Source: Methanococcoides alaskense (GTDB taxonomy: Archaea > Halobacteriota > Methanosarcinia > Methanosarcinales > Methanosarcinaceae). From it: a DNA stretch of 64,000 bases. A program made the position numbers and the translations under genes. Where the stretch lies: positions 1 through 64,000 of the forward strand of contig NZ_JAQFFK010000002.1 of the NCBI RefSeq assembly GCF_027594145.1, given 5' to 3'. Every line of letters starts with the position of its first letter. Position 1 is the stretch's first letter. Below, in pieces: positions 7,232-30,239 of this stretch. The notes beneath the pieces are model-generated. The model searched no databases, was not told the DNA's origin, and saw only the letters and a program-made list of their open reading frames with translations.

Positions 7232-8164
7232 ATGTTACGTGTAGGAGTTATCGGAACCGGAGCTATGGGTGTTAACCATATAAGGATATATCATGAGATG
7301 GAAGGCGTGGAACTTGTCGGAATCTCAGATATCGATGAGAAAAGGGTGAATGAACTTTCCAGAAAATACGAAACCGAGCCATTTACAGACTACAAGAGGC
7401 TGCTTGGGAAAGACCTGGATGCTATTAGCATCGTTGTCCCGACAAAGCTCCATAAACGGGTGTGTCTTGATGCCCTTGAAGCCGGGGCAAATGTGCTTGT
7501 GGAAAAGCCCATAGCGGATACGCCGGAAAATGCAAATATAATGATACAGGCTGCAAAGAATGCAGGAAAAGCATTAATGATCGGACACATAGAGAGGTTC
7601 AATCCGGCGGTCATCAAGCTTAAGGAGATCATAGATGAGGGGCTGCTTGGAAAGATAGTTTCCATTTCGACCCGAAGGGTCGGCCCATACAATCCAAGAA
7701 TAAGGGATGTGGGTGTGATCCTGGATATAGGAGTGCACGACATCGATATCATTTCATACCTTTACGGCCTTGAAGTAAACAACGTTCATGCCATTGCAGG
7801 TGCAGACATCCATCCGTTCGAGGACCATGCGTCCATCCACCTGAGATTTGACCATGACCTGACAGGACTTGTGGATACCAACTGGCTGACCCCTCACAAG
7901 ATACGCAACCTTACCGCCGTAGGAATTAAAGGCGTGGCATATCTGGACTACATCAACCAGACATTAGAGCTGCATGATGAGAACTGGATAAGGGAAGCAA
8001 AAGTGGACAAGGCTGAGCCTCTCAGGAACGAACTTGAACATTTCATCAAATGTGTGAGCACAGGTGAAAAGATACATCCCAACGGAGAGAACGGAAAGCA
8101 CGCACTGGAAGTCTGCATGGCTGCCATTGAGTCATACAAACAGGAAAAGACTATCCAATTGTGA
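7232..8164 (+). CDS. Gfo/Idh/MocA oxidoreductase, probable UDP-N-acetylglucosamine 3-dehydrogenase
   Basis: NAD-dependent oxidoreductase of 310 residues. The N-terminal Rossmann fold has GTGAMG at 8-13, the catalytic-lysine motif EKP is at 91-93, and a GFO_IDH_MocA C-terminal sheet domain follows with DIGVHDID near 165-172. In Methanococcus a relative oxidises UDP-GlcNAc at C3 on the way to diamino sugars of N-linked glycans. The neighbour at 8218 is a nucleotide-sugar 6-dehydrogenase, which supports a role in S-layer glycan precursor synthesis. Substrate assignment rests on context and family. SDs are weak, but AAGGAATAATTATC precedes the ATG. Confidence 0.75.
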   Translation: MLRVGVIGTGAMGVNHIRIYHEMEGVELVGISDIDEKRVNELSRKYETEPFTDYKRLLGKDLDAISIVVPTKLHKRVCLDALEAGANVLVEKPIADTPENANIMIQAAKNAGKALMIGHIERFNPAVIKLKEIIDEGLLGKIVSISTRRVGPYNPRIRDVGVILDIGVHDIDIISYLYGLEVNNVHAIAGADIHPFEDHASIHLRFDHDLTGLVDTNWLTPHKIRNLTAVGIKGVAYLDYINQTLELHDENWIREAKVDKAEPLRNELEHFIKCVSTGEKIHPNGENGKHALEVCMAAIESYKQEKTIQL

Positions 8165-8217: not shown

Positions 8218-9636
8218 ATGAGTGACAAGTTACAGAAAATTATGGATGCACGAGGACCAATCAAAAAGATAGGCGTGCTAGGTATGGGATATGTAGGTAT
8301 TCCTGCTGCTGCTCTGTTTGCAGATGTAGATGATTTTGAAAAGGTGCTGGGTTTCCAGAGGAACTCCGCTTCATCCGGCTACAAGATCGATATGATCAAC
8401 AACGGCGAAAGCCCGTTGAAAGGTGAAGAACCCGGCCTTGAAGACCTCTTAAGAAAAGTCACCGATGCCAAAAAGTTCGAGTGCACCCCAGATTTCTCAA
8501 GAATTGCAGAGATGGACGCAGTGACCCTGGCCATCCAGACCCCATTTGCGAACCCTGCAGACCTCATCCCTGATTTCGGAGCCCTCATCGAAGGCATACG
8601 CAATGTGGGTAAATACCTCACCCCCGGCACACTGGTAGTGCTTGAATCCACCGTCACCCCGGGAACCACAAAAGGAATGGCCAAAGACATCCTCGAAGAG
8701 GAATCCGGCCTGATAGCAGGAGAGGATTTCGCCCTGGCCCACGCTCCTGAACGCGTGATGGTAGGACGCCTCCTGAAGAACATCCAGGAACACGACAGAA
8801 TTGTCGGAGGAATAGACGAGACCAGCACAAAGCGAGCCATCGAGCTATACTCCCCGGTCCTCACAAAGGGAAAGATCATCCCAATGTCCGCCACGGCCGC
8901 CGAGGTCACCAAAACCGCAGAGAACACCTTCCGTGACCTCCAGATCGCAGCAGCCAACCAGCTCGCCCTCTATTGCGAGTCCATGAGAATCAACTTCTAC
9001 GATGTCCGTGCCGGAATAGACAGCCTGAAAGGCGAAGGCATCACAAGAGCCATCCTCTGGCCCGGAGCCGGAGTAGGCGGCCACTGCCTGACAAAAGACA
9101 CCTATCACCTTGAAAGAGGTATAGAGATAGCCGGCGAAACGCCCCTTGACTACCCCGAAAATGCTGACTCCATCTACGTCCTCGCAAGAAAAGTGAACGA
9201 CTTCATGCCCGCCCACATGTTCAAGCTCACTGAAGATGCCCTTGCAGCCACCGGCAAAAAGATCAAAGGCTCAAAGATCGCCATGCTTGGCTGGGCCTTC
9301 ATCAATGATTCCGATGATGCGAGGAATCCCCCATCCGAACCATACAGGGATCTACTTATCGAAGCCGGTGCTGAAGTGATGGTACATGATCCGCATGTTT
9401 TAAGCTATCCAAATGTTGAGATCGAGAAAGATATGGGATCAGTAGTGAAAGATGCTGATGCGGTCGTGATCCTGACCGGTCACTCCGAATACTTCAAACT
9501 GAGCCCTGCGGATGTTAAAGCATTGATGGGTAAAGATCAGCCTGTTATTGTGGATGGCAGGAACGTTATTGATCCTACTGTTTTTGTTGATGGAGGGTTC
9601 GTTTATCGAGGGATTGGAAGAGGGGATGTTAACTGA
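8218..9636 (+). CDS. UDP-sugar 6-dehydrogenase (UDP-ManNAc or UDP-GlcNAc dehydrogenase, WecC family)
   Basis: Three-domain UDP-glucose/GDP-mannose dehydrogenase of 472 residues. The N-terminal NAD site is GVLGMGYVG at 19-27. The central dimerisation domain has TAENTFRDLQIA near 232-243. The catalytic cysteine is Cys290 in GVGGHCLTKD, and the C-terminal UDP-binding domain ends in VDGRNVIDP. It oxidises a 6-CH2OH to a uronic acid in two steps. Family and length fit UDP-N-acetylmannosamine dehydrogenase best, but UDP-GlcNAc or UDP-Glc are possible. A decayed copy of the last ~60 codons of such a gene lies at 15142-15329, on the far side of the acyl-carrier cluster. Confidence 0.85.
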   Translation: MSDKLQKIMDARGPIKKIGVLGMGYVGIPAAALFADVDDFEKVLGFQRNSASSGYKIDMINNGESPLKGEEPGLEDLLRKVTDAKKFECTPDFSRIAEMDAVTLAIQTPFANPADLIPDFGALIEGIRNVGKYLTPGTLVVLESTVTPGTTKGMAKDILEEESGLIAGEDFALAHAPERVMVGRLLKNIQEHDRIVGGIDETSTKRAIELYSPVLTKGKIIPMSATAAEVTKTAENTFRDLQIAAANQLALYCESMRINFYDVRAGIDSLKGEGITRAILWPGAGVGGHCLTKDTYHLERGIEIAGETPLDYPENADSIYVLARKVNDFMPAHMFKLTEDALAATGKKIKGSKIAMLGWAFINDSDDARNPPSEPYRDLLIEAGAEVMVHDPHVLSYPNVEIEKDMGSVVKDADAVVILTGHSEYFKLSPADVKALMGKDQPVIVDGRNVIDPTVFVDGGFVYRGIGRGDVN

Positions 9637-9731: not shown

Positions 9732-10361
9732 ATGGACACTAAAAATTTAAAAATACCATCCACTGTTTCTCTGGAACATATACTCCACTTTTGGGAACAG
9801 AATGATATTCTTATCCTCATAGTTGATCTGAATGACTATGATACATTGAATACAGATCACCTGGATGACATTGAAAAAGAACATCTGGAAATATTACAAA
9901 CCGAATATTTCAAAAAAAGATACATTACATCCAGAATCGTTTTGAAACATATTCTGTGTAGTATCCTCAAAGAACGAACCGTATCCGACATATCCATGTA
10001 TAAAGACAAATATGGAAAAGTCCATGTACATAATCATAAAGAAGTACATATCTGCATCTCCTATACTGAAAATATTGTCACCCTGGCGATCTCAAAGACC
10101 GAGATTGGTGTTGATGTCGAGCTTAGAAAATTACGGTCTCTTACAAATGTTTCAAAATACCTGCACAACCCACTTTTACATGCCGACACATATGCGAATG
10201 GTCACGATCATTTAATGATATGGACCCTGAAAGAAGCGTATTGTAAGTTTTTGAATAAGAGCATTTTATCTAATTTGAATAAAGAATTATATCTTGACAA
10301 TATCTGTCATTTAAATTATATTATAAACAGCAAATACATACTTGCTGTTGTTACTGATTAG
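9732..10361 (+). CDS. Sfp-type 4'-phosphopantetheinyl transferase
   Basis: The enzyme transfers phosphopantetheine from CoA to a carrier-protein serine. Counted from an in-frame ATG at 9687, the signature IGVDVE is at 140-145 (Mg-binding Asp143 and Glu145). WTLKEAYCK at 179-187 matches the W(S/T)xKEAxxK motif with its catalytic Glu and Lys. The upstream ICISYTENIVTLAIS strand corresponds to the substrate-binding P1 region. ATG 9732 is preferred because the first 15 residues of the longer form are unlike the family. A strong AAGGAG precedes a GTG at 9674 in another frame, which would give a 25-codon leader. It uniquely ends in TAG. The obvious substrate is the ACP 156 bases downstream. Archaea usually lack this enzyme. 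Confidence 0.85.
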   Translation: MDTKNLKIPSTVSLEHILHFWEQNDILILIVDLNDYDTLNTDHLDDIEKEHLEILQTEYFKKRYITSRIVLKHILCSILKERTVSDISMYKDKYGKVHVHNHKEVHICISYTENIVTLAISKTEIGVDVELRKLRSLTNVSKYLHNPLLHADTYANGHDHLMIWTLKEAYCKFLNKSILSNLNKELYLDNICHLNYIINSKYILAVVTD

Positions 10362-10517
10362 AATCAGTATACGATTAATATTTGTCGTCTCCAGGAAATT
10401 GCCTTGTTGAAAATATATTAATACCATTAGAAATAACATTATACATGGCAAAAAACTAACGTGTATTGCCAACGATCATCGATTCGCAAAAAAGGAGAGC
10501 TTGGGGGCTAGAGAGAC

Positions 10518-10763
10518 ATGGAAACGATAAAGAAAGATATACTTAACTACCTGAATAACAAATCTTTTATGGATGGGAACACCCAGTTGAATGATAATGA
10601 TTCCCTCACCCAGAACGGGATCATGGATTCGATCGGCCTGATCGAATTGATGGATTATATATGTGAAAAATATTCCATAGAAATTCCTGAAGACATGTTG
10701 ACCCCGGAAAATTTTGACTCTTTACAAGGAATCACTGATCTGATCGTTAAACTGACAGAGTGA
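10518..10763 (+). CDS. Acyl/peptidyl carrier protein
   Basis: An 81-residue carrier protein with the phosphopantetheine attachment motif. NGIMDSIGLIELMDYI carries Ser38 in DSIG, followed by the acidic helix II and III regions of a four-helix ACP fold. The protein is acidic and of normal carrier length. It sits 156 bases after the phosphopantetheinyl transferase and 4 bases before the adenylating enzyme, so it should be primed by the first and loaded by the second. A purine-rich GGAGAGC...GAGAGAC leader precedes the ATG. Archaeal lipid synthesis does not use ACP, so this carrier most likely serves a specialised acylation or aminoacylation pathway. A D-alanyl-carrier-like role cannot be excluded. 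Confidence 0.9.
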   Translation: METIKKDILNYLNNKSFMDGNTQLNDNDSLTQNGIMDSIGLIELMDYICEKYSIEIPEDMLTPENFDSLQGITDLIVKLTE

Positions 10764-10767
10764 GATC

Positions 10768-12246
10768 ATGAGAATTGATACCTATATTACAGAATATGCC
10801 AGAAAAAGTCCTCATAACGTTGCCATTGAAGAAGGCAAAAACTCTATTTCCTACAGCTGTCTTGATGAGGATATAAATAGTATTACCTCATCCATGATGG
10901 ACTTTGGGCATTGCAGGTTTGCAATACTAGCAGAATCCGGCATACAATATATAAAAATGCTTATGGCGGTATACCGGTCAAACAACATCGCAATACCTCT
11001 GCCGATCGAATTGCCAATGTTCAGTCTGGAACGGATCCTTGATACTGCCCATATCAATAATATAATTGCAACAGAAACACAGTATTCAAGGCTTGGAGAG
11101 GACTTTTTTGAGTGTTTTGAAACCGTGGTCGTTGTTTCAAATGATACTTCCGTAAAGACCCTGCGTAAAAGGATCGTAAGAGAGATCAATAATCCAGACA
11201 CGAGACTGGTGCTGTACACATCCGGTACAACAGGCACTCCAAAAGGCGTCATGTTAAGTGATAGAAACCTGATAGCAAATGCAGGTTCAATAATAGAGGT
11301 ACTTGACATAATTCCTGATGATAAGGCAGCAATGGTGATATCCCCACACCATGCTTTTGGAAATTCCATAATCGATTCCCAGCTGATGGCTGGCGGATCC
11401 ATCGGAGTCGGGAACATGAACTTTATAGAATCGACTTTCAGTCTGATAGAATCAGGAATATCGATATTCTATGGAGTTCCCAGTACATATCGTATGCTCC
11501 TTCGACATCCAGAGAGGTTCAAAAAGGCATTTGGAAATGTCAGGATGGCTGCATCTGCAGGCGGTGGCATGGATGGAGTCACAGTGAAAAATATAAAGGA
11601 GTCGAATCCGGATATAACGATACTGCCAATGTATGGTCAGACCGAAGCCACGGCAAGACTGGCCTACCTGCCGCCAGAGGATGTGGACAAATTCGGTGAT
11701 ACGATCGGCAAGCCTATACCCGGCGTCATCCTGGATGTATTTGATGCCGACAACAGACCGGTTGGACCAGACATCGCAGGAGAACTGGTTGCTAAGGGCG
11801 ACAATATACTGATAGGTTACTTGGATGATGAGATGGCCACTGAGAAGAAGATCATTGATGGTTGGATGTACACAGGGGATCTGGCACAGAAATTGCCCAA
11901 TGGTTATTTTAGACTACTGGGGCGCAAGGACGACCTTATAAAAATAGGTGACCATCGAGTGAATCCAAGAGAAGTTGAAAAATATATAGAGAACAACAAT
12001 GAGGTCACCAATGTTTTCGTGGTACCGGTGCCACACGAGATTATGGGAAATGCCATTAGCCTCATGGTCATTCCTGGACAAGGGACAGATGTTGAAAACC
12101 TGCATGCATTCTGCCGGAAAAACCTACCTGGCTACCTTTGCCCACGGGAAATACTCTTCATCGATAATCCGCCATTGAGCGAGAACGGGAAAATATCTAA
12201 TAGATCTATAATAGAGGGGTATCAAAATGTCAAAAAAAGTATGTGA
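10768..12246 (+). CDS. ANL-superfamily acyl/aminoacyl-ACP ligase (AMP-forming)
   Basis: Adenylating enzyme of 492 residues with all core motifs. The phosphate-binding loop TSGTTGTPKG is at 151-160, GQTE at 290-293, YTGD at 368-371, the hinge RKDDLIKIGDHRVNPREVE at 386-404, and the catalytic Lys475 is in SENGKIS. It activates a carboxylate as an acyl-AMP and passes it to a thiol, here most plausibly the phosphopantetheine of the ACP whose gene ends four bases upstream. The residues that would define the substrate are not interpretable by eye, so fatty, hydroxy and amino acids all remain possible. It overlaps the next gene by 20 bases, indicating translational coupling. Confidence 0.88.
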   Translation: MRIDTYITEYARKSPHNVAIEEGKNSISYSCLDEDINSITSSMMDFGHCRFAILAESGIQYIKMLMAVYRSNNIAIPLPIELPMFSLERILDTAHINNIIATETQYSRLGEDFFECFETVVVVSNDTSVKTLRKRIVREINNPDTRLVLYTSGTTGTPKGVMLSDRNLIANAGSIIEVLDIIPDDKAAMVISPHHAFGNSIIDSQLMAGGSIGVGNMNFIESTFSLIESGISIFYGVPSTYRMLLRHPERFKKAFGNVRMAASAGGGMDGVTVKNIKESNPDITILPMYGQTEATARLAYLPPEDVDKFGDTIGKPIPGVILDVFDADNRPVGPDIAGELVAKGDNILIGYLDDEMATEKKIIDGWMYTGDLAQKLPNGYFRLLGRKDDLIKIGDHRVNPREVEKYIENNNEVTNVFVVPVPHEIMGNAISLMVIPGQGTDVENLHAFCRKNLPGYLCPREILFIDNPPLSENGKISNRSIIEGYQNVKKSM

Positions 12247-13237
12247 AAAATGTGTTCTGGATTCGGAGATCCCGGGCATAACGATTAATGAGGAGAGTGG
12301 CCTCTGCCATTTTTGTGAGACATATGCCCCTCTTTCTTCGGAAGAGAAGGATGAATATGTAGCCCGGATGGAAGAACTCTTTGAGGAACACAAGGGCAAG
12401 CACAAATATGACATGATCTTTGCACTTTCCGGTGGCAAAGACTCTTCATACACGCTTTACAAACTGAAAAATAAGTATCCCTTCCTGAAAATACTGGCCG
12501 TCCAATTTGATAATGGTTTCACATCTGAGAACGCAGTAGCGAATGCAAAAAAAATGTGTGAGATAGCAGGATGTGACTATTTTAAACTGACCATGGAAAA
12601 GGATATACTGTACGATACATTCAGAAAGGCTGCTGAATCCCATGATGTATTCCCCAAGGTCGCCAAATACAGAGCCAGTGATATATGCAACACCTGCATC
12701 AGTATCATCAAACAGAAGTTGATAGAACAGGCCATCGTTCAGAAAGCACCTTTCGTTGTATTTGCATTCACAGGGGCACAGTCCCCCAATCCCATAATCA
12801 ACCTGTCAGCTAATTTCATACAGTGGTCGAGGAAGCTTTTTGAGAAACAACTTCAAGAGATGGGGATTGATGACAGGGATGAGTTGTTCCTGATAAAAAA
12901 GGATGTTATTGAAAATATAGGAAATGACGCTCCAATCATGCTGCACCCCCTATGTCTGTGGGATTATAATGAAAATACAATAATTAAGAACTTGGTGGAG
13001 ATAGGATGGCTCCCCCCAGATATCAATGACAGTAATTCGACCAACTGTACATTGAATTCCTTTGCCTGTTACAACCATCTGGATAAATATGATATTCATC
13101 CATACGCCTTTGACATAGCAGGAATTGTCAGAAGCGGAGATATGTCCAGAGAGGAAGGTCTGGAAAAACTCCACAAAGAATTATCACAGCCATTGATAGA
13201 AGAAGCTGCGAACAAACTTAAGCTAAAGCTAAAATAA
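12227..13237 (+). CDS. N-acetyl sugar amidotransferase-like ATP pyrophosphatase (WbpG/WbuX/PseA family)
   Basis: Product of 336 residues. An N-terminal zinc knuckle has Cys6, Cys9, Cys27 and Cys30 in CEKC...CHFC. A PP-loop SGGKDS at 68-73 marks an N-type ATP pyrophosphatase. This arrangement is that of the N-acetyl sugar amidotransferases, which turn an acetamido group of a nucleotide sugar or a nonulosonate into an acetamidino group. Such enzymes normally work with HisH/HisF-like ammonia-supplying subunits, and none is seen nearby. The NAD-synthetase-like protein next door might play a related part. It overlaps the ligase gene by 20 bases. Confidence 0.75.
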   Translation: MSKKVCEKCVLDSEIPGITINEESGLCHFCETYAPLSSEEKDEYVARMEELFEEHKGKHKYDMIFALSGGKDSSYTLYKLKNKYPFLKILAVQFDNGFTSENAVANAKKMCEIAGCDYFKLTMEKDILYDTFRKAAESHDVFPKVAKYRASDICNTCISIIKQKLIEQAIVQKAPFVVFAFTGAQSPNPIINLSANFIQWSRKLFEKQLQEMGIDDRDELFLIKKDVIENIGNDAPIMLHPLCLWDYNENTIIKNLVEIGWLPPDINDSNSTNCTLNSFACYNHLDKYDIHPYAFDIAGIVRSGDMSREEGLEKLHKELSQPLIEEAANKLKLKLK

Positions 13238-13460
13238 GCCACAAAGTTATATAGCAGCTTTTTGCTCCATGGCTAAAGAGAATATCTGGATTGCTGGCAA
13301 CCATTCCATGCAAATCAACCAATGTAATCCCTTACCTTGTGATATAATGTCAACCATCCAATCATTGTAGGAGAGTGATACCATACGAATAATTGATGAA
13401 CTGAACGGGGATGCTGAAAAGATCGCCGAAACTATCAGGACTTTTATTAAGGAACAGGTT

Positions 13461-14351
13461 GTGGGTTTTAAGAAAAAAGGATTGGTCATAGGAGTCTCGG
13501 GAGGCATTGATTCAGCTGTGGCCCTTACGCTTGCCGTGCAAGAACTGGGAAAAGATAATGTATATGGCCTGCTCATTCCAGAAAAAGAATCGGCCCCATC
13601 CAGCACATCCCTAGGGGCAGAGATTTGCGAAAGCCTGGAAATATCATATGAAGAGGTCTCCATCTCCCCCATACTGGAATCACTTGATATTTATGATAAG
13701 AAGGAACAGATCATAAAGAGGACCTGTCCGGAATATGACCCCAGGATACACAAAACATCGCTGGTACTGCCTGATTTTCTGAATCAGGGATTGTTGAACG
13801 TTCCATATATACAGCTGATAAAGGATGGCGAAGCGATTGCAAAGTACAGGTTGAAGGCAAACGATTATCTGGAACTGATCGGATTGCAGAACGTCAAGCA
13901 AAGGTCCAGGATGCTCGTCCAGTACATGTGTGCTGAGAAGATGAACTATGCAGTTTGCGGTACTACCAACAAGACTGAACTGGCCCTTGGTCAATTCGTA
14001 AAATACGGAGACGGGGGCGTGGATATTGAACCATTGGCGGATTGCTATAAGACCCAGATATATGCCCTGGCAAAACTTCTCAATGTCGATGAAGCGATCA
14101 TACAGCGGCCACCAAGCGCTGACACATGGAGCCATTTCACCTCTGATGAGGATTTCTACTGGCGCATGCCCATCCATGTCATGGATCAACTACTGTATGC
14201 TCAGGAACATCGGCTGTCTGTAGAGGTAATTGAAAAGAATACCGAATTGTCCAGAGAGACCATACACAAGGCCCAGAGACACATCGATAGAATGAGAAAT
14301 ACTACCACATATGTGCGAGCAGCTCCACCCATCTGTTACCTGGGCAGATGA
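13461..14351 (+). CDS. NAD synthetase-like ATP pyrophosphatase (start uncertain)
   Basis: From GTG 13461 the protein has PP-loop SGGIDS at 13-18. GTTNKTELALGQFVKYGDGG and PLADCYKTQ near 173-205 and RPPSADTW near 217-224 follow, all typical of NadE. Homologous sequence clearly extends upstream (IIDELNGDAEKIAETIRTF), with no ATG, GTG or TTG before 13461. A good Shine-Dalgarno (AGGAGAG, 13369-13375) is spaced for an ATA at 13383 where an ATG would be expected. The frame is closed above by a TAG at 13368, with a further in-frame ATG at 13269. In this cluster it may aminate or amidate a carboxylate instead of making NAD. It overlaps the reductase by four bases. Confidence 0.8.
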   Translation: MGFKKKGLVIGVSGGIDSAVALTLAVQELGKDNVYGLLIPEKESAPSSTSLGAEICESLEISYEEVSISPILESLDIYDKKEQIIKRTCPEYDPRIHKTSLVLPDFLNQGLLNVPYIQLIKDGEAIAKYRLKANDYLELIGLQNVKQRSRMLVQYMCAEKMNYAVCGTTNKTELALGQFVKYGDGGVDIEPLADCYKTQIYALAKLLNVDEAIIQRPPSADTWSHFTSDEDFYWRMPIHVMDQLLYAQEHRLSVEVIEKNTELSRETIHKAQRHIDRMRNTTTYVRAAPPICYLGR

Positions 14352-15106
14352 GTCACGGAAGAAAAATGCTTACAGACAAAGTGGTACTCGTCACAGGAGC
14401 GAGCAGGGGAATTGGAAGAGCTACAGCCTTGATTGCAGCAGAGAACAATGCACACGTGATCATTAACTATAACAAGAGTGAGGAACGGGCAGCTGAACTG
14501 ATGGACCTGATCCGTCGGAAGGGGCTTAACGCTTCGATGATCAAGGCCGATGTCTCATCAGAAGACGATGTCAAGGCCATGTTCGAATCTATCAAGGAGG
14601 AACATTCCAAACTTGATGTGTTGATAAACAACGCAGGGATCATGCGAAACAACCTTCTGATGCTAACTAATATGGAAATGTTCGACCGTACCATCGGGAT
14701 CAATCTGAAGGGAACGTTCCTGTGTACCAGATATGCATCGAATATAATGAGGAAGCAGGGGTCGGGAAGGATCATCAATTTATCGTCCACCATAGGACTC
14801 AAAGGGAATGCCGGGCAGACAGTATATTCAGCAAGCAAGGCGGCAGTGGTCGGATTTACAAGATCCGCAGCGAAGGAACTGGGCAGATATGGGATAACGG
14901 TCAATGCTATTGCACCAGGTCTTATTGAGACCAACCTTATAAAAGATATTAAAACTGATATTCGAGAAAAAATGATGTCCAATATTGCCCTTGGACGTAT
15001 CGGTACGCCGGAAGATGTCGCAAAAGTAATATTGTTTTTGAGTTCGGATCTTGGAAGTTATGTCAGCGGAGAGGTCATTGTGGTGGATGGATGTCAGATG
15101 ATGTGA
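14348..15106 (+). CDS. Short-chain dehydrogenase, FabG-like 3-oxoacyl-ACP reductase
   Basis: Classical SDR of 252 residues. The cofactor motif TGASRGIG is near 16-23, NNAG near 94-97, and the active-site Ser is in NLSSTIG. The catalytic YSASK lies near 159-163, and IAPGLIETNL follows. The C-terminal VSGEVIVVDGCQMM resembles FabG proteins, which reduce 3-oxoacyl-ACP to 3-hydroxyacyl-ACP with NADPH. With an ACP in the same operon, a hydroxyacyl-ACP product is an attractive inference, but many FabG-like SDRs act on sugars or free ketones. ATGA overlap with the preceding gene. It is the last gene of the apparent operon. Confidence 0.85.
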   Translation: MSHGRKMLTDKVVLVTGASRGIGRATALIAAENNAHVIINYNKSEERAAELMDLIRRKGLNASMIKADVSSEDDVKAMFESIKEEHSKLDVLINNAGIMRNNLLMLTNMEMFDRTIGINLKGTFLCTRYASNIMRKQGSGRIINLSSTIGLKGNAGQTVYSASKAAVVGFTRSAAKELGRYGITVNAIAPGLIETNLIKDIKTDIREKMMSNIALGRIGTPEDVAKVILFLSSDLGSYVSGEVIVVDGCQMM

Positions 15107-15141
15107 TCGACCACCAGTGACTTTCTTCACAGATATTAGAC

Positions 15142-15329
15142 GATTGTTTCGGACGCTGATGTTGTGGCTGTCATGACCGGGAATTCAGATTACTTCAAAT
15201 TTGACCCAGCCCAGTTGAAATCCCCACAGGCAAGGAACATCCGACCATCATTGATGGCAGGAATGTTGTAGACCTGATGAGTATGTCAATAGGGGTTTCG
15301 TTTACAAGAAATTGGAAGGGCTTATATGA
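15142..15329 (+). pseudogene. Decayed C-terminus of a nucleotide-sugar dehydrogenase
   Basis: Read in stitched frames, this stretch gives SDADVVAVMTGNSDYFKFDP, then GKEHPTIIDGRNVVD, then RGFVYKKLEG. These parallel the last ~60 residues of the intact dehydrogenase at 8218-9636 (DADAVVILTGHSEYFKLSP, GKDQPVIVDGRNVIDP, GGFVYRGIGRG). At least two frame changes separate the pieces, and the catalytic domains are missing. It sits just past the end of the acyl-carrier cluster, so the cluster is flanked by an intact and a broken member of the same family. Confidence 0.75.
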
Positions 15330-16269: not shown

Positions 16270-19200
16270 TCAATTTACAATATCACCAAAATTCTGTGCA
16301 ACTGCTGTGAGATCCAGGATGTTAATTAGACCATCCTGGTTAACATCACAGCGTGGGTCACTCTCCGCAGAGCTGCCGATATTCTGGCCAACCAGTGTGA
16401 TGTCCAGAATATTAACGATTCCATCTTCATTCACATCCGCGCGTGGATAGGCGGCATTTACTTTTATAGTAAAGGATTCTGAGTCAGCAAGATATCCATC
16501 TGTTACCTCTGAAGTGACAACATAAGTACCTGCCTGACCCTCTGAAGGCGTCCATATGAATTCACCTGATGCGGAATCAAAGCTTGCACCGACCGGAAGG
16601 CCTGCTGCCGAGTATATCAGAATATCGCCATCCGCATCTGTAGCACTGACTGCAAATGTAAGCGTACTTGTTTCATCAACATACTTTGCACCAATTTGAT
16701 CAATAACTGGTGCTGTATCAACGAGCACGGTTGCTTTTGAAGTTGTGAAAGGCATGAGATTTGAATTGGTATCACTGATAACCACATTGGCCAGATCAAT
16801 TTCTGCCATGCCTGTAGCACTTCCTGCTGTCATGCTGATCGTAGCCATCACACCCTGGGATGTGACACTTTCCGAGCCGATAATTGAGGAGTAGACTTCT
16901 TCGATCTTGCCATCATTGTTTAGCATTATTCCACTGCTGAAAAACGTGGAAGCACCGTTCTGATCGAAAAGGTTACCTTCTGTTACACTTCCTGCTGTCA
17001 GCTTTGAACCATCAAAAAGAAGATCTAACTGAGCCCCTGTTATTGGTACTGCAGGATCGATCAAAACATCCACCGTGAAGGTTTCACCAGGAGTTACCTG
17101 ATCCGATGAAGCTAAAAGGTGGACAGGAGTGATTGATGGATTCGCAGGTCCAATTACAGAATCGCTTTCTGTTGCATGACCGATGGTGAGCTTTGGCCTC
17201 TGGTTCTCATTGCTCCAGTCAGAACTGTAGAATGCAATATAGTTGTCATGCTCATTTTGTGCCTTGAGGAAGAAACCGGTGTTGTCGTATTCACCACTGA
17301 CATAATCCTGCACCAGTTCTGTGATATCGAACTCATAGTACCTGTTATCAGGCAGATCATTTGCATCAAACGTTATTGATGCATAAGGCTCACTGCCCTG
17401 GGCTACATTGTTCACATCGAACCAATCCCCACCCGCGTTGTTCCATGGAGTGCCAGCTGCCTTGTTGTTCCAGCTTACATCATCAGAATTCCAGTCAGCT
17501 GCTCTGTAGATCTCTACAACAGTGTCCTGGTTACGTGGACTGTTCTCAGGATAGTACCAATATAATGAAAGGGTTGCATCAGAGACTGTGTCAGTGGTGT
17601 TATACGTACTTAGGTTAAACCACATGACATCCCTATAACGACCTGTACCATCAAAGTGCCCTATGTCAATATAATTGTCCTCTGCAAGGGTAGTATCAGG
17701 AGTTGATTCGCGCAGTCGGTTGTCATAAACCAGACTTGGTGCTGTAGCAGTGTTTCTAATTACAGTTATGGTAACTTCTTCAGAATCAGTGAGCTGACCA
17801 TCCGTTACTTCAAATGTGACAGAATGGGTACCTTCCTGACCTTCGGATGGTGTCCAGCTGAAAGCACCTGTGGAACTTCCAATGCTTGCACCAGATGGGA
17901 GACCAGTGGCTGAGTAAGCAAGACTATCACCGTTAACATCTGTGGCACTGACAGTAGAGATTAAGGTGCTTCCTTCATCCACTGTCCTGTCACCGATCGC
18001 GTTCAGGACGGGTGCTGTGTTACTTGGTGCTGGTTTAGAATCATCACTTCCATACACACCTATACCTGCATCAATTATCGGTGAATTCGATCTTAGACGG
18101 TAATCATGATTTGCTCGATCAACGAACAATGGATCGACATTGAGATCGGATGCATATGAACCGACATTGCGGTAATTACCTTTTTCGTTGTCCCATACAT
18201 TGTTGTTCTCCAGGATAAGATCATGCCTTGAGTCAAGATAATTATTGATCCCATACCCACTTGATGAGAAAGCACTGTTATAATTTGAGCCAGTGATGAT
18301 ATTGTTTCTGATATATATCTTGTAGCCGGTTGTGCTACCCATTCCAAATCTGTTACGGGTGATGATCCCATCTCCCTCACTACTATCGATCACATTGTTT
18401 TCAATTACTGTGTTGTCCCAACCATTTATCTGGATCCCACCACTGTGTGAGCCATAACCTGTTGAGTCGTAGATCAAATTATGATGAATATACAGATCAC
18501 TTGCTTTATCAAGTGCGGGGGTTCCTGTCACACGGTTACAAACAACCACACCAAATTCTTGATGGGTTTTTATTTCATTATATGAAATTTCATAATTTTG
18601 ACATGTGTATGAAGCTCCAGTAAGAGATAGATAGATCGCAGACAATCCATGTAATGCAGATGGATCGGTCTGCATTATATTGTTAGTGATCACAACATTA
18701 TCTGTGTTCTCTATTCTGAAACCACAATCACCATTTAGAACTGAAACGAGATTATCGTGAATGTAAACACCATCAGATCCATGTATATATATGTCATCAT
18801 GACCTGTCCAATAAAATTCATTGTCATGGATGTTCATATTAGCGGGTTTTCCGTCGCCGTTGATCTTAATTCCATCATTTGCTATATGATGGATTTCCAT
18901 GTTATATATCTCGAAATCATACGGGTCACTACGATCGCCATTAGGACCGTTATGCCGAAATCCAAACCCATCCATGAAACTCCGCCCGTGAACAGCAGGC
19001 TCACCATACACAGTCCTTACATACTTTTGTGCAAAGTAGTTTCCATCTACTTGAAAATCATGGATCTTAAAATTATGTGCCGCACGTGTAGCAGGTTCAA
19101 ACAATGATTTGTATTGCGGAAACATACATTCATCTACCAATGTTATGATAGTGTCATCTACACCTGCACCCTGCAAGTTCATATTTGAATAGAATATGAC

Positions 19201-19434
19201 AGTATTTGCTATTTCATAATTGCCAGCTTTGATGTACACAGTATCATATTCAGGATGAGCATTCACAAACGCAGTTGCCTGGTTGATCTGAACTTCGTCT
19301 GCTGTCCCATCCGTGTTATAATCACCGCTGCCATCTGTGGCAACATATACGATCGGGGCAGTACTACCCAAAACAGTCGGAATCGTTAGTAACAAAATGA
19401 ATGATACTATTAACAAGATATTTAGCTTTTTCAT
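16270..19434 (-). CDS. Secreted beta-helix surface protein with cohesin and dockerin modules
   Basis: Large secreted protein of about 1054 residues. A Sec signal peptide covers residues 1-25. A right-handed parallel beta-helix of the NosD/PbH1 type (many NxI and HDN-like rungs) spans about 30-460. A cadherin-like He_PIG domain covers 475-560, and a DNRLRE-type module about 570-755 (DNRLRE itself visible at its start). A cohesin-like domain follows at about 770-905 (TPGETFTVDVLID, TAGSVTEGNLF) and a second He_PIG at 910-995. A type I dockerin ends the protein, with two DVNxDGxxNILD calcium loops at about 1000-1054. ATG 19434 is chosen over GTG 19443 because GTGGTAATC lies just upstream. No sorting motif or membrane anchor is seen, so attachment may depend on cohesin-dockerin contacts. 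Confidence 0.85.
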   Translation of the reverse strand: MKKLNILLIVSFILLLTIPTVLGSTAPIVYVATDGSGDYNTDGTADEVQINQATAFVNAHPEYDTVYIKAGNYEIANTVIFYSNMNLQGAGVDDTIITLVDECMFPQYKSLFEPATRAAHNFKIHDFQVDGNYFAQKYVRTVYGEPAVHGRSFMDGFGFRHNGPNGDRSDPYDFEIYNMEIHHIANDGIKINGDGKPANMNIHDNEFYWTGHDDIYIHGSDGVYIHDNLVSVLNGDCGFRIENTDNVVITNNIMQTDPSALHGLSAIYLSLTGASYTCQNYEISYNEIKTHQEFGVVVCNRVTGTPALDKASDLYIHHNLIYDSTGYGSHSGGIQINGWDNTVIENNVIDSSEGDGIITRNRFGMGSTTGYKIYIRNNIITGSNYNSAFSSSGYGINNYLDSRHDLILENNNVWDNEKGNYRNVGSYASDLNVDPLFVDRANHDYRLRSNSPIIDAGIGVYGSDDSKPAPSNTAPVLNAIGDRTVDEGSTLISTVSATDVNGDSLAYSATGLPSGASIGSSTGAFSWTPSEGQEGTHSVTFEVTDGQLTDSEEVTITVIRNTATAPSLVYDNRLRESTPDTTLAEDNYIDIGHFDGTGRYRDVMWFNLSTYNTTDTVSDATLSLYWYYPENSPRNQDTVVEIYRAADWNSDDVSWNNKAAGTPWNNAGGDWFDVNNVAQGSEPYASITFDANDLPDNRYYEFDITELVQDYVSGEYDNTGFFLKAQNEHDNYIAFYSSDWSNENQRPKLTIGHATESDSVIGPANPSITPVHLLASSDQVTPGETFTVDVLIDPAVPITGAQLDLLFDGSKLTAGSVTEGNLFDQNGASTFFSSGIMLNNDGKIEEVYSSIIGSESVTSQGVMATISMTAGSATGMAEIDLANVVISDTNSNLMPFTTSKATVLVDTAPVIDQIGAKYVDETSTLTFAVSATDADGDILIYSAAGLPVGASFDSASGEFIWTPSEGQAGTYVVTSEVTDGYLADSESFTIKVNAAYPRADVNEDGIVNILDITLVGQNIGSSAESDPRCDVNQDGLINILDLTAVAQNFGDIVN

Positions 19435-19665
19435 GATTACCACATATGTTTATTTAAGACTTTTATATTGGTTTTAGATATATATGATGTGAAGCTCAGG
19501 GTTTTTATTCGATATAAGTGTTGTGAATTTCCGTCACCATCATATTTACCGAATAACGTTTTTTATGTACACTGATATGAGTGTTGTGTTCACAATTCTT
19601 GTATTTGAGAACACACTGTCCCGGAGTATGCCTATTGTGGTCAAGATATATCCATACGTTAATAT

Positions 19666-25253: not shown

Positions 25254-26381
25254 ATGCCATCAACAAAGATACGCACGCTGGAGGAAAAGGACTTTTCAGA
25301 ACTAGCAGATTTCTTGAGAGAGGGGTTACACTACCCACCTGAGATTTGGCAACGTCGTTTCGATATGTGGTGGAAAAACAATCCCTGGATGGATCCATCC
25401 ATCCCGTTTGGCTGGGTCATTGAAGACGAGAAATCGGAAATTGTTGGTTTTATGGGGAATATCCCTGTAAAATATCAGATAAAGGGGAGAGATGATATCG
25501 CTGCAACCGGTACATCACTATATGTGCGACCTTCGGTACGAGGAGTTATCAGCCTTCAGCTGATACTGGCATTTGCCAGACAGAAAAATATTAAGCTCCT
25601 GCTCAACACCACGGCAAATAAGACCGCGACACAAATATTCTCCAAATTGGGTTTTTCTGATATCGATGTCCCGTTTAATAATCTAGAATACTGGTATATT
25701 CGAGATTATGGACAAATGTGTGATTTATACATACAAACGAACATTACATCTCACAGCCTGCTACCTTTAAGAAAAGTTTCAGTGGCTCCCATAAAGTTGA
25801 TCTCACCTTTTGTTCGATGGTTCAAGGATAAAAGAACATTTAAGTTACAACCGAATCATTACAAATGTTCTCTATGCACAGATTGTGATGATTCGTTCAC
25901 AGAATTGTGGAAAAACAGCAGAACAAAAAATGCAACAACACTGTGCCGGGATGCAGAGACACTTAAATGGATATATTTCTCAAAAGCTGTCGCTGAGAAG
26001 CGATATGTGATCAAGTGTATCGATACCCAAAATGATAAGCTAGTTGGATATTTTGTATTTGATATTGCAGGTTCTGAAAAAGATATTAAGACCATGCAAC
26101 TGAAAGATGCATACATACCACAATTCGAAGAAGAGATAGTTCTATCATTAATTGCGTTCTCAATGGACATGGCAAAAATACATAATGTTGCTGCATCAGT
26201 ATTCTGGCCTATCGATCAGAAAATGGATGAAATACTGAAAAAACGAATTAAGATAAAAAGAAAGCACAAACTTACATATCTGTACAAATTTCTCAATGAG
26301 AATGATGAATTGGATTTGGAGGGGCATGAAGATCACGAATTTATCCCTTCGTACATTGATCCCGATAGAGGAGCACTATAA
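25254..26381 (+). CDS. GNAT-fold acyltransferase-like protein
   Basis: The 375-residue product has an N-terminal half resembling a GNAT acetyltransferase. IRTLEEKDFSELADFL, IVGFMGNIPVKY, TGTSLYVRPSVRG (acyl-CoA loop region) and TANKTATQIFSKLGF appear in the usual order. The C-terminal ~200 residues are not recognised but could be a second, degenerate GNAT unit. In a glycan cluster it could N-acylate an amino sugar or transfer an amino acid. If the ACP cluster feeds this region, it is one candidate acceptor-side acyltransferase, although it lies 10 kb away. It ends in TAA. Confidence 0.6.
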   Translation: MPSTKIRTLEEKDFSELADFLREGLHYPPEIWQRRFDMWWKNNPWMDPSIPFGWVIEDEKSEIVGFMGNIPVKYQIKGRDDIAATGTSLYVRPSVRGVISLQLILAFARQKNIKLLLNTTANKTATQIFSKLGFSDIDVPFNNLEYWYIRDYGQMCDLYIQTNITSHSLLPLRKVSVAPIKLISPFVRWFKDKRTFKLQPNHYKCSLCTDCDDSFTELWKNSRTKNATTLCRDAETLKWIYFSKAVAEKRYVIKCIDTQNDKLVGYFVFDIAGSEKDIKTMQLKDAYIPQFEEEIVLSLIAFSMDMAKIHNVAASVFWPIDQKMDEILKKRIKIKRKHKLTYLYKFLNENDELDLEGHEDHEFIPSYIDPDRGAL

Positions 26382-26588: not shown

Positions 26589-27698
26589 ATGTTAAAAGCT
26601 TTCAAGTATAGAATGTATCCTACAAAAGAGCAGGAAGAGATGTTTTTTCAACATTTCGGTTCATGCAGGTTCATCTATAATTGGGCTTTGGATAACAAGA
26701 TTAAATCTTATCAAACGGAGGGCAAGTCAACATCAAGGTTCACGTTGAACAAAATGTTGACCGAGTTAAAGGTAGAACATGAATGGTTGAAGGATGTAAA
26801 TTCTCAATCGCTACAAGGTGCTACTCTTAATCTTGAAAGCTTATACGAAGTTTTTCAGGGAAAAGACTGGATTTCCTAAATTTAAATCGAAGAAGAAACC
26901 TGTACAATCGTTTTCTGTACCACAATTCTATAAGGTGGACTTTGATGATAATAAAGTCTATCTTCCAAAGATAGGGTTTGTCAAGACTATTTTACATCGT
27001 AAATTTACAGGTAACGGAAAGACTGCTACGGTTTCCAGAACATCTACTGGAAAATACTATATCAGCATTCTTGTTGATGATGGTAAAGAAGTGCCTGTTA
27101 AATCCTCTTTCGATGAAAATTCAACTGTCGGCATTGATGTGGGGATTAAGGATTTCGCTGTTATCTCCAATGGTGAAAAAGTCGAGAATCCTAAGTATCT
27201 TAAAAACTCTATGCAACGACTGAATGTGCTACATCGAAGGATGAGCAAGAAACAAAAGGGCTCAAATAATAGGACAAAAGCTAAACTTGCATTATCAAAA
27301 CTCCATGAGAAAGTCAGAAACCAGAGAAATGATTTCCAACACAAACTCTCTTCTAAACTATTAAGCGAGAACCAAGCTATAGCGTTGGAAACATTGAATG
27401 TTGAAGGGATGATAAAAAATCACAACCTTGCTCAACATATTGCAGATGCTTCGTGGAGTTCCTTTGTATCCATGCTCGAATAAAGGCAGAATGGTGTGGA
27501 AAGACCGTTCTCCGCATCGGACAATTCGAACCATCAACTAAAATCTGTAACGTGTGCGGTCACTACAAAAATGACATGACACTTGCGGTTAGAGAATGGG
27601 AATGTCCCGAATGCAATTCAATTCACGATAGAGATATTAATGCCGCTATCAACATTAAGAAATTTGCACTTAATAAACAGAACTTAATTGGAATTTGA
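26589..27698 (+). pseudogene. TnpB/OrfB, frameshifted twice
   Basis: Three pieces make one TnpB. Residues from 26589 (MLKAFKYRMYPTKEQEE...NWAL) run to about 26840. A second frame carries KTGFPKFKSKK and the first RuvC Asp in GIDVGIKDFA up to about 27480. A third frame from there carries KAEWCGKTVLRIGQFEPSTKICNVCG, the second zinc pair CPEC and the last Asp in DRDINAAINI. The RuvC-II Glu is present in ALETLNVEGM. All catalytic positions survive but the two frame changes should abolish the protein. The source may be a functional copy elsewhere. Confidence 0.85.
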
Positions 27699-30239
27699 AG
27701 CACCTTCGGAACGAGGGGAAGAGCCTGTGAAGTTGCGTTCGATGGAACGAGCTATGAAACAGGAAGTTCCATGCGTAAGCGTGGAGTAGTTCACACCTGT
27801 AATGATCGCATCTCCCCAGTATTCAGGTACAGCGTAGGAACCTGTTAGATTGCACCAATTAAAGAAATATAAATCACCTGCATTATCCAAGTCATTTATG
27901 GCAAGGAACAAACCAACAATGTCGTTAGAAGGTTGTCCGCCGACGTCACTCCATGGTATTGCAACCTCGATCATGTAGCCCCTATCCTTGTCACTTGCAT
28001 CATTCTTGCTGCCCTGCAACCTCACGCTTTTGAGAATATTGCTGGTGTAATTGTAATCCTTCCCACTACCAGTACCCACATCATCCACCACTGCACCATT
28101 CAGGTTTATGATAAAGTGGTAGTCATCTGTCTGCATTGCGAACCCATTGTTGTGCAAAGTGTCAAGATATATCTCAACGCCATCATCCATATGTAGACTA
28201 GTGTCATCACTTACCCCATCTGCCCGGAGGTTGGTGTCTTTCACATCACATCCAAAGTAAAGGTACGTGTCATCATACATTGCCTTTATTGTTGCTATAT
28301 TGTCTTCTTCTGGATTTCTGTCGGAGACTCCATAAATTGTAATCCCGACTGTGTTTTGCCAATCACTTAGATCACCATCGATTGTAGCTGTACCGCGTAC
28401 TATGTCTAAATTTCCGCAGTCAGTGTCCGATGGAATTTCCTGTACAGTTAAAAGAACAGTGTCCGAATCGATTTTACCCTCAGCGTCTGTCACCGTCAGT
28501 GTTGCTGTATATGTTCCCACTGAACTATAGGAGTGCTGAACAACGATACCAGCGGCATCCTGCTGGAGTCCGTCAGAATCATCGAAGTCCCATGTATAGG
28601 ATATAATACCAACATCGTCTGTTGATGCAGAGCCGTCCAAGGTCACGATCTCACCAGTAGAAACTGTGCGGTCAAGACCGGCGGAAGCATTACTGTAGTC
28701 CGACCCCGAGTATCCCACATCGATGAGCAGACTTGTTATAGAATCGATTATCCATCTACTGACCACAAAGCTTAAGCTCCTTTCTTCATCCACGGTCCTG
28801 CTGCCTATCGTGTTCAGAATGGGTGCTGGTGTAGAATCAGCACTTACATACACACCCATACCTGCATCAATGATCGGTGAATTCGGTTTTAGATGGTAAT
28901 CATGATTCCCTCGATCAACGAACAATGGATCTACATTGAGATCGGATGCATATGAACCTACATTGCGGTAGCTACCTTTTTCGTTGCTCCATAAATTGTT
29001 GTTTTCCAGGATAAGATCATGCCTTGAGGCAAGATAATTATTGATCCCATACCCACTTGATGAGAAACCACTATAATAATCTGTGTTACTGATGATATTG
29101 TTTCTGATGTATATCTTGTAGCCAGTCGTGTCACCCATTTTAAATCTGTTTCTGGTAACGATCCCATCACCATTACAGCCATCGATCACATTGTTTTCGA
29201 TCACAGTATTATTCCAGCCATTTATCTGGATTCCACCACCGTATCCATGACTTCCGATTGCATCATAGATCAAATTGTGGTGGATATACAGATCTTTAGC
29301 TTTGTCAATATCAGGCGTTCCTGCCACACGATTACAAACTACAATGCCCATTTCCTGAACATCTCTTATTGTATTGTACGCAACGGTATAATTGTTAGAT
29401 GTGTGTAAACTATTAGTAAGGGATAAATAAATACCAGATAATCCACGAGGATCAGACGTTTTAGTATACAGAGTATTGTTTGTGATGACAACATCGCTTG
29501 TGTCTTCAATTCGCACGCCACAATCGCCATAGATCCATGTGAAATCATTGTCATAAATATGTACATTTTTTGTATACATAATGTATATATCATCATGACC
29601 TGTCCGATAAAACGTATTATCGTGAATTTTCAGATCAGCATCTGTACCATCCCCTCTGATCCTGATACCATCGTTTGCACCATCATGGAAGTACATATTG
29701 TAGATCTCAACATCGTATGGAGCACTGTGATCTCCATTCGCACCACTGGACGCAAAGAAGAGATCAAGGTATCCCCGACCATGTATGCTTGGCTCACCCA
29801 TCTGGGTTACTACATATGTTTGCTTGTCAAGGTTCCCATCCACTTCAAAATCATGGATTTTAAAACTATGGGCACCCACACTAGATGGTTCGATCAAACC
29901 TTTTCGACCAGGCCATCCACATTCATCTTTTAATTTGACCACAGCACCTGGCTCACCTTCAAGTATTGTATTACTATGAATGAAGATCGTATCGCCTATA
30001 ATGTAAGTACCACTTTTTAGATGAACAGTTGTATATTCAGAATGGCTTACTACGAAGTCCATTGCCCGGTTTATTTGAACCTGGTCATCCGTACCATCAC
30101 AATTGATGTCACCGCTGCCATCTGTAGCAACATATACTGTTGATGCAGCCGAACTACGTAAAGTGGTTGTGATACCCAGTAACAGAACCAATATTAGTAT
30201 ACACAATATTGCGACAGTTGTTTTTCTCATTACTATCAT
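27684..30239 (-). CDS. Secreted beta-helix surface protein with PKD and CBM9-like domains, 3' end replaced by IS sequence
   Basis: Product of 851 residues. A signal peptide covers about 1-32. A parallel beta-helix (about 35-460) is closely paralogous to that of the protein at 16270, including CNRV, HHNLIYD, IENNVID and TRNRF rungs. A cut-off He_PIG start lies at 473-494, a PKD domain at about 515-600 (TLDGSASTDDVGIISYTWDF), and a CBM9/DOMON-like carbohydrate-binding domain at about 608-815. The last ~35 residues after AIITGV are encoded by the inserted IS right end. There is no dockerin, cohesin or anchor motif, so the native C-terminus may be lost. An alternative ATG lies at 30230. Confidence 0.82.
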   Translation of the reverse strand: MIVMRKTTVAILCILILVLLLGITTTLRSSAASTVYVATDGSGDINCDGTDDQVQINRAMDFVVSHSEYTTVHLKSGTYIIGDTIFIHSNTILEGEPGAVVKLKDECGWPGRKGLIEPSSVGAHSFKIHDFEVDGNLDKQTYVVTQMGEPSIHGRGYLDLFFASSGANGDHSAPYDVEIYNMYFHDGANDGIRIRGDGTDADLKIHDNTFYRTGHDDIYIMYTKNVHIYDNDFTWIYGDCGVRIEDTSDVVITNNTLYTKTSDPRGLSGIYLSLTNSLHTSNNYTVAYNTIRDVQEMGIVVCNRVAGTPDIDKAKDLYIHHNLIYDAIGSHGYGGGIQINGWNNTVIENNVIDGCNGDGIVTRNRFKMGDTTGYKIYIRNNIISNTDYYSGFSSSGYGINNYLASRHDLILENNNLWSNEKGSYRNVGSYASDLNVDPLFVDRGNHDYHLKPNSPIIDAGMGVYVSADSTPAPILNTIGSRTVDEERSLSFVVSRWIIDSITSLLIDVGYSGSDYSNASAGLDRTVSTGEIVTLDGSASTDDVGIISYTWDFDDSDGLQQDAAGIVVQHSYSSVGTYTATLTVTDAEGKIDSDTVLLTVQEIPSDTDCGNLDIVRGTATIDGDLSDWQNTVGITIYGVSDRNPEEDNIATIKAMYDDTYLYFGCDVKDTNLRADGVSDDTSLHMDDGVEIYLDTLHNNGFAMQTDDYHFIINLNGAVVDDVGTGSGKDYNYTSNILKSVRLQGSKNDASDKDRGYMIEVAIPWSDVGGQPSNDIVGLFLAINDLDNAGDLYFFNWCNLTGSYAVPEYWGDAIITGVNYSTLTHGTSCFIARSIERNFTGSSPRSEGASNSN
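27690..27796 (+). ncRNA. Candidate omegaRNA scaffold at the IS right end
   Basis: In IS200/IS605 elements the TnpB guide RNA comes from the 3' end of tnpB and the right end, with the guide just beyond it. This segment follows the tnpB C-terminus, is rich in short complementary stretches (CACCTTCGG, GAGGGGAAGAGCC, GTTCGATGGAAC) and ends in the CCATGCGTAAGCGTGG hairpin and AGTAGTTCAC. The other element shares the terminal GGAGTAGTTCAC. Assignment is by position and hairpin content only. Confidence 0.35.

Follow-up and report, generated by a model that had tools for sequence, protein, structure and literature searches.

Closthioamide synthetase, CtaC, is an iron-sulfur (Fe-S) cluster enzyme that acts solely on a carrier-bound substrate and requires the residues D77/S78 and C154/C157/C284 (PMC6772006). 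In a second described system, SMb20650 of S. meliloti is reported to acylate holo-SMb20651 in E. coli, the genes of both proteins being cotranscribed (PMC7232532); their function was said to need further study (PMC5686131). In archaea, carrier-protein pathways are scarcely known, and our literature searches turned up no publication describing an archaeal module of acyl carrier protein (ACP) and phosphopantetheinyl transferase (PPTase). Here we analyzed a stretch of 64,000 nucleotides from Methanococcoides alaskense (positions 1 to 64,000 of contig NZ_JAQFFK010000002.1), referred to as the window, which comes from an assembly that is only 77% complete. Positions 9732-15106 hold a module of six genes for an Sfp-type PPTase, an ACP, an ANL ligase, a PP-loop ATP-pyrophosphatase (the PP-loop protein), a NadE-like enzyme that also has a PP-loop, and a FabG-like short-chain dehydrogenase/reductase (SDR). 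We propose, with a probability of roughly 45%, that the module encodes a dedicated thiotemplated pathway in which, as we infer for chemistry, order of steps, substrate, and acceptor alike, an ACP-bound acid is amidated, then thiolated or aminated, and passed to an amine.

A carrier-protein module with its own PPTase in Methanosarcinaceae

All six open reading frames of the module are intact, in agreement with a preliminary description of this DNA, which had listed an Sfp-type PPTase, an ACP with a DSIG motif, and an ANL ligase among them. The ligase gene starts 4 nucleotides past the ACP stop codon, and its last 20 nucleotides also belong to the PP-loop gene, an overlap of the same length having been measured in 68 loci. 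In comparison with the nearest relative of the window, the six genes gave dN/dS values of 0.07 to 0.51. Orthologue comparison placed the start of the SDR gene at 14366 and not at 14348. At the conserved N terminus (window positions 13371-13400), the reading frame of the NadE-like enzyme offers none of the start codons ATG, GTG, and TTG; at ~13383 an ATA is present in the window and in the nearest relative (L014), where orthologues have ATG. Either a rare start codon is used or a shorter protein is initiated at GTG 13461.

Close orthologues of the PP-loop protein (65-94%) were found in 39 of 150 genomes of the order, including that of the window, and the named records among the module carriers belong to Methanosarcina, Methanococcoides, Methanolobus, and Methanomethylovorans. 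The order PPTase-ACP-ANL-PP-loop-NadE(-SDR) was kept in ~40 loci of Methanosarcinaceae. A check of linkage across archaeal relatives, as suggested in the preliminary description, thus revealed a conserved gene order instead of unlinked singletons, and the linkage of the module genes is far above chance. More distant PP-loop homologues (44-52%) occur in Methanoregula-type genomes and in one record labelled Thermoplasmata, a label that may be wrong because the neighbouring genes of this record match Methanoregula. In the Methanoregula-type loci, the PP-loop gene directly follows the ACP gene. Among the distant archaeal loci, L084 and L085 hold the PPTase, ACP, ANL, PP-loop, and NadE-like genes together in rearranged order; ACP, ANL, PP-loop, and NadE genes are found together in L082 and in L095, the latter with an additional weak PPTase-like match, and L096, truncated at the end of its contig, has genes for ACP, PP-loop protein, NadE, and a GNAT-type protein. 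A profile search of the phylum detected the PP-loop clade in two further families.

The PPTase profile matched all 39 module genomes, and a single weak match of different form was obtained in the other 111 (Fisher p = 2.5e-35, a value that ignores shared ancestry and serves as a guide only). In Methanomethylovorans and in two further genomes, the PPTase gene is separate from the module, so that this co-occurrence exceeds mere linkage. It bears out the earlier view of a self-contained archaeal carrier module with its own PPTase; as also stated earlier, no ketosynthase is present. Many complete genomes of the same family have neither the PP-loop gene nor the PPTase gene, which indicates that the module is accessory. 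Decaying or partial copies were also seen: the ligase gene is broken in L043, a module copy in L031 lacks NadE, and one genome carries a PPTase remnant with stop codons (G145:C4:83027-83191) together with an intact PPTase gene on another contig.

The PPTase is divergent (E = 0.0012 to Sfp 1qr0), and its scores of 22.6-24 bits with the Pfam family ACPS (PF01648) lie just under the 25-bit cut-off; it is the sole PF01648 match in the genome. Both Sfp-type motifs, (I/V)G(V/I)D(V/I)E and W-x-x-KE(A/S), were found, as IGVDVE and WTLKEAYCK, with G126, D128, E130, W164, E168, and K172 invariant in our alignment (A3). The ACP, with 22.6 bits, is above the PF00550 cut-off of 20.8, has carrier proteins as its nearest solved structures, and is 98% identical to that of the nearest relative (dN/dS 0.07). 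The ligase possesses the usual ANL motifs and aligns best with adenylation domains of nonribosomal peptide synthetases (NRPS). The A4 Asp, to which alpha-amino groups bind, is not retained (FDGS against FGNS in the alignment with the adenylation domain of gramicidin synthetase), making a non-amino acid the likelier substrate. The ligase is predicted to load a carboxylic acid onto the ACP.

The two PP-loop enzymes

The fourth gene had been described as that of a sugar amidotransferase-like enzyme; a sugar amidotransferase of the ordinary kind is not supported. Its product scores 112 bits with TIGR03573 (WbuX) against a cut-off of 203, and distant module members score 74-76 bits. N-acetyl sugar amidotransferases (NASATs) with HisH/HisF partners, used as controls, reached 213 and 283 bits and thus exceeded the cut-off, and no HisH/HisF2 partner genes were seen in the ~40 module loci. 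The PP-loop protein has an invariant zinc tetracysteine (C6/C9/C27/C30) and the PP-loop SGGKDS (residues 68-73), of which S68, G69, G70, D72, and S73 are invariant in 56 distinct orthologues. Likewise invariant (56/56) are C154-x-x-C157 and C274, a candidate [4Fe-4S] triad. All of four aligned plasmid NASATs lack this triad; three of them adjoin HisH/HisF genes, and the fourth has asnB and a formyltransferase gene in the stretch read. An AlphaFold2 model of the PP-loop protein (pLDDT 91.8) matched, after a top hit that is considered below, the [4Fe-4S] enzymes NcsA and TtuA and then LarE. C154/C157 fell on the CxxC motif of NcsA in both profile alignments to archaeal NcsA sequences, which were taken from two relatives; a PF01171 search of the window's genome found no NcsA.

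Full-length bacterial relatives of the PP-loop protein on plasmids (24-25% identity) are located in NRPS proteins, and these NRPS-linked relatives share the motifs CNGC and SxNC (CNxC plus NC). In the Roseovarius relative (L112:12415-20463), the PP-loop domain (residues ~863-1208 of 2682) separates the core of an adenylation domain from its C-terminal part, forming an "interrupted" A domain in an NRPS of a polysaccharide locus. The Streptomyces relative has its PP-loop part N-terminal to a condensation domain, in a cluster resembling those for secondary metabolites. The archaeal PP-loop gene is itself linked to carrier protein and ligase genes, as expected for a CtaC-type enzyme. The low TIGR03573 score, the lack of HisH/HisF, the Cys triad, and the NRPS-located relatives together favour a carrier-linked enzyme of the Fe-S type over a sugar amidotransferase, and the latter label is probably misplaced.

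The NadE-like enzyme was assigned to subfamily NF002048 with 470 bits (cut-off 313) and has an insert of ~50 residues and an altered substrate loop. A separate canonical NadE is encoded in the same genome (C1 629703-630425). Plasmid searches yielded full-length homologues (34-37%) in Rhizobiales and Azospirillum. In all nine alphaproteobacterial clusters examined (L115, L116, L118, L120, L128, L129, and L130, and, by translated search, L117 and L119), AsnB, ACP, and ANL genes stand beside that of the NadE homologue, and a related GNAT is present in five of the nine. Both the rhizobial and the archaeal NadE proteins exceed the NF002048 cut-off, and the ACP and ANL proteins are homologous, too. 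The rhizobial clusters occur in varied contexts, for example adjoining minCDE, and no PPTase gene was seen within them; an AsnB-type amidotransferase was not seen in the archaeal module loci. Judged by replicon and gene pair, the counterpart on S. meliloti pSymB is most likely the SMb20651/SMb20650 pair.

Reductase, acyltransferases, and genomic context

The preliminary description had made reduction by the FabG-like enzyme a central step. The SDR gene forms part of the module in Methanococcoides, Methanolobus, and Methanomethylovorans as well as in a few others and is missing in most Methanosarcina loci and in all distant archaeal loci, for which reason we rejected the SDR as a core enzyme. 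In most relatives, the genes past NadE or SDR encode a DUF362 protein bearing two 4Fe-4S sites, along with a hexapeptide acyltransferase. The window cluster itself has neither a DUF362-ferredoxin gene nor a hexapeptide acyltransferase gene; a DUF362 homologue (57%) is encoded elsewhere in the window's genome, and an orthologue of the hexapeptide acyltransferase was not found in this incompletely assembled genome. A nickel-pincer/LarA link via DUF362 was set aside, the connection being no more than a shared Pfam clan (PMC11770544).

A GNAT-type protein adjoins the module in L026, L084, L085, L095, and L096. The window encodes a homologue of this protein downstream of the module (Table 1), which is related to the GNATs of the rhizobial clusters (hhalign, 95%). 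The earlier statement that no dedicated acyltransferase is present was therefore too strong, given this GNAT family and the hexapeptide acyltransferases in the clusters of most relatives. The constant core and the variable transferase (GNAT or hexapeptide) suggest that the core makes an activated acyl group and that the transferase selects the acceptor.

In the window, sugar-nucleotide genes lie upstream of the module and polysaccharide genes downstream of it. The neighbouring genes for UDP-GlcNAc 3-dehydrogenase and UDP-sugar dehydrogenase were found only in the window and in L014/L054. Disaggregatase-type genes lie close to the module in three genera, and two extra module copies stand beside glycosyltransferase genes, with a flippase-like protein also encoded near the extra copies. 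Based on these neighbouring genes, a link of the module to a surface glycan is plausible. The decoration of a surface sugar put forward in the preliminary description thus gains plausibility from the sugar and polysaccharide genes, but a glycan product is not proved by this context. IorAB genes upstream of extra copies were limited to three genomes (L032, L033, and L043) and were taken as a local association.

Only two genes with the disaggregatase-associated domain PF08480 were found in the genome, at 16270-19443 and 27684-30239 and thus within 15 kb of the module; Methanomethylovorans and other Methanococcoides likewise have PF08480-like genes near the module. Directly downstream of the module, positions 15140-15320 hold what is left of a second UDP-sugar dehydrogenase gene, a C-terminal fragment in decay, and the module therefore seems to be flanked by two copies of this gene, an intact one upstream and a broken one downstream.

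Synonymous divergence from L014 was 0.07-0.18 for the module genes and 0.32-0.47 for the upstream sugar genes. The PP-loop gene is nearer to those of a Methanosarcina and a Methanosarcinales metagenome-assembled genome (80-82%) than to those of other Methanococcoides (69-72%). The low divergence of the module and the closeness to Methanosarcina make a recent horizontal transfer likely.

Table 1. Positions of the module genes and of associated features in the window
Feature	Position	Strand	Remarks
Sfp-type 4'-phosphopantetheinyl transferase (PPTase), module-dedicated	9732..10361	+	ATG 9732 set by orthologue comparison
Acyl/peptidyl carrier protein (ACP)	10518..10763	+	PF00550, attachment Ser in DSIG
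ANL (AMP-forming) ligase	10768..12246	+	PF00501 173 bits, PF13193 45 bits
PP-loop ATP-pyrophosphatase, WbuX/CtaC type	12227..13237	+	TIGR03573 below cut-off, motifs
NadE-like ammonia-dependent PP-loop enzyme, subfamily NF002048	13383..14351	+	Start codon uncertain
FabG-like SDR, optional module part	14366..15106	+	TIGR01830 270.8 bits, cut-off 297.8
GNAT-type acyltransferase, candidate acyl-ACP-dependent N-acyltransferase, putative member	25254..26381	+	
UDP-GlcNAc 3-dehydrogenase (Gfo/Idh/MocA), upstream neighbour	7232..8164	+	NF040723 521 bits, cut-off 450
UDP-sugar 6-dehydrogenase, upstream neighbour	8218..9636	+	TIGR03026 312 bits

The proposed pathway, its alternatives, and known systems

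In the thiotemplated pathway that we propose, the PPTase would prime the ACP, and the ANL ligase would activate a carboxylic acid lacking an alpha-amino group and transfer it to the ACP. A second carboxylate of the ACP-bound acid would be converted with ammonia to a primary amide by the NadE-like enzyme. The PP-loop protein would then adenylate this amide and replace its oxygen by sulfur, most likely yielding a thioamide, or by nitrogen, yielding an amidine. In the last step, a GNAT or hexapeptide acyltransferase would hand the altered acyl group over to an amine, for which an amino sugar in the cell envelope is plausible. The conversion of a carboxylate to an amide by a NadE-type enzyme followed by that of the amide to a thioamide or amidine by a CtaC/WbuX-type enzyme is a natural sequence on one carrier-bound acid, and the Cys triad favours sulfur chemistry. 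The more specific idea that Methanosarcinaceae build an acyl group with a thioamide or amidine on the dedicated carrier and mount it on an envelope polysaccharide, using a core shared with the rhizobial pathway, is one that we consider doubtful.

Several observations weigh against the proposed pathway. The top PDB fold match of the modelled PP-loop protein is the sugar amidotransferase LpNASAT (8wex, TM 0.71), and the kinship with CtaC concerns motif positions and not a direct sequence alignment. C274 fell on the third Cys of NcsA in one of the two profile alignments, within a low-confidence stretch. A CxxC motif and a later Cys also occur in archaeal WbuX-type proteins that are not part of the module (L097-L099), and the triad is thus no exclusive mark of carrier-linked enzymes. 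In a tree of WbuX-type proteins with long branches, the module and NRPS forms did not fall into one supported clade, and we therefore base the argument on the motifs in common instead of this tree. Furthermore, the module encodes no sulfur source, and the rhizobial partner AsnB favours nitrogen over sulfur if the two enzymes are functional equivalents.

The similarity to LpNASAT and to the family TIGR03573 would also fit a sugar-centred pathway, in which the PP-loop protein, as an amidotransferase, converts an N-acyl sugar to an amidino sugar, a uronic acid is amidated by the NadE-like enzyme, and the ACP just supplies the acyl group, the product being an amidino-acyl, uronamide-type sugar of the envelope. 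This would agree with the zinc tetracysteine motif, the two sugar-nucleotide dehydrogenase genes immediately upstream of the module, and the nitrogen-transfer enzyme AsnB in the equivalent place in rhizobia. However, the PP-loop protein remains under the family cut-off that HisH/HisF-partnered NASATs pass, its cluster is devoid of HisH/HisF, its Cys triad is not present in the four aligned plasmid NASATs, the sugar-nucleotide neighbours are limited to the window and two relatives, and the full-length bacterial relatives reside in NRPS proteins; we therefore regard a sugar-centred pathway as rather doubtful. The CtaC precedent, which is an antibiotic pathway, could instead point to a small secreted or intracellular metabolite of the non-ribosomal, closthioamide-like kind without a role in the envelope, for which the varied contexts of the rhizobial clusters and the cluster of the Streptomyces relative also speak. 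Such a product is unlikely, as no exporter was seen conserved alongside the module, the Roseovarius relative, like some of the archaeal copies, is found in a polysaccharide locus, and the likely final enzymes resemble GNAT or hexapeptide acyltransferases.

In a pathway along the lines of the preliminary description, a (3-hydroxyacyl) group reduced by the FabG-like enzyme would be passed from the ACP onto a surface sugar that both PP-loop enzymes modify. The linkage of a FabG-type SDR in Methanococcoides and the other taxa given above is consistent with this idea, but the other genes persist where the SDR is missing, and no enzyme for making a 3-ketoacyl group is present, which renders it very unlikely. 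A housekeeping function in the synthesis of NAD, fatty acids, or methanophenazine, as suggested by the NadE-like and FabG-like annotations and by the wide occurrence of the module in Methanosarcina, is extremely unlikely. The canonical NadE encoded elsewhere in the genome speaks against NAD synthesis as the main role, and a role in methanophenazine or general lipid synthesis was rejected because many complete genomes within the family lack the PP-loop gene and the PPTase gene alike.

Names such as NAD synthetase, FabG, and sugar amidotransferase are misleading and, together with a PPTase scoring below the Pfam cut-off, hide these genes. If the thiotemplated pathway is correct, common and genetically tractable Methanosarcina strains would hold an accessory pathway of this kind whose product could be searched for directly. 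It would also offer a first point of entry to the rhizobial ACP cluster and connect the "NAD synthetases" of NF002048 with ACPs in two domains of life.

With regard to the known systems, the module resembles the closthioamide pathway of Ruminiclostridium cellulolyticum in having a stand-alone carrier protein and ligase and an anaerobic host, and the CtaC residues D77, S78, C154, C157, and C284 have likely counterparts, with the Cys triad at nearly the same spacing, in D72, S73, C154, C157, and C274 of the module enzyme. It differs by the NadE-like enzyme and the GNAT or hexapeptide transferase, whereas the ATP-grasp enzyme, peptidyl transferase, and transglutaminase of the closthioamide pathway were not seen in the archaeal module. 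With WbuX, WbpG, and LpNASAT (PMC10607449), the PP-loop protein has the fold, the zinc tetracysteine, and the PP-loop in common, but it is set apart by its sub-cut-off TIGR03573 score, the lack of HisH/HisF2, the extra Cys triad, and the linkage to ACP and ligase genes. The NadE-like enzyme shares the PP-loop and the GTxNKxE...KYGDGGVD core motifs with canonical ammonia-dependent NadE and differs from it by the insert, the changed loop, and carrier-protein neighbours in both domains. The rhizobial asnB-ACP-ANL-nadE cluster has AsnB in place of the CtaC/WbuX-type enzyme. Within the searches made here, the pairing of two PP-loop enzymes and the archaeal host range are the new features of the module.

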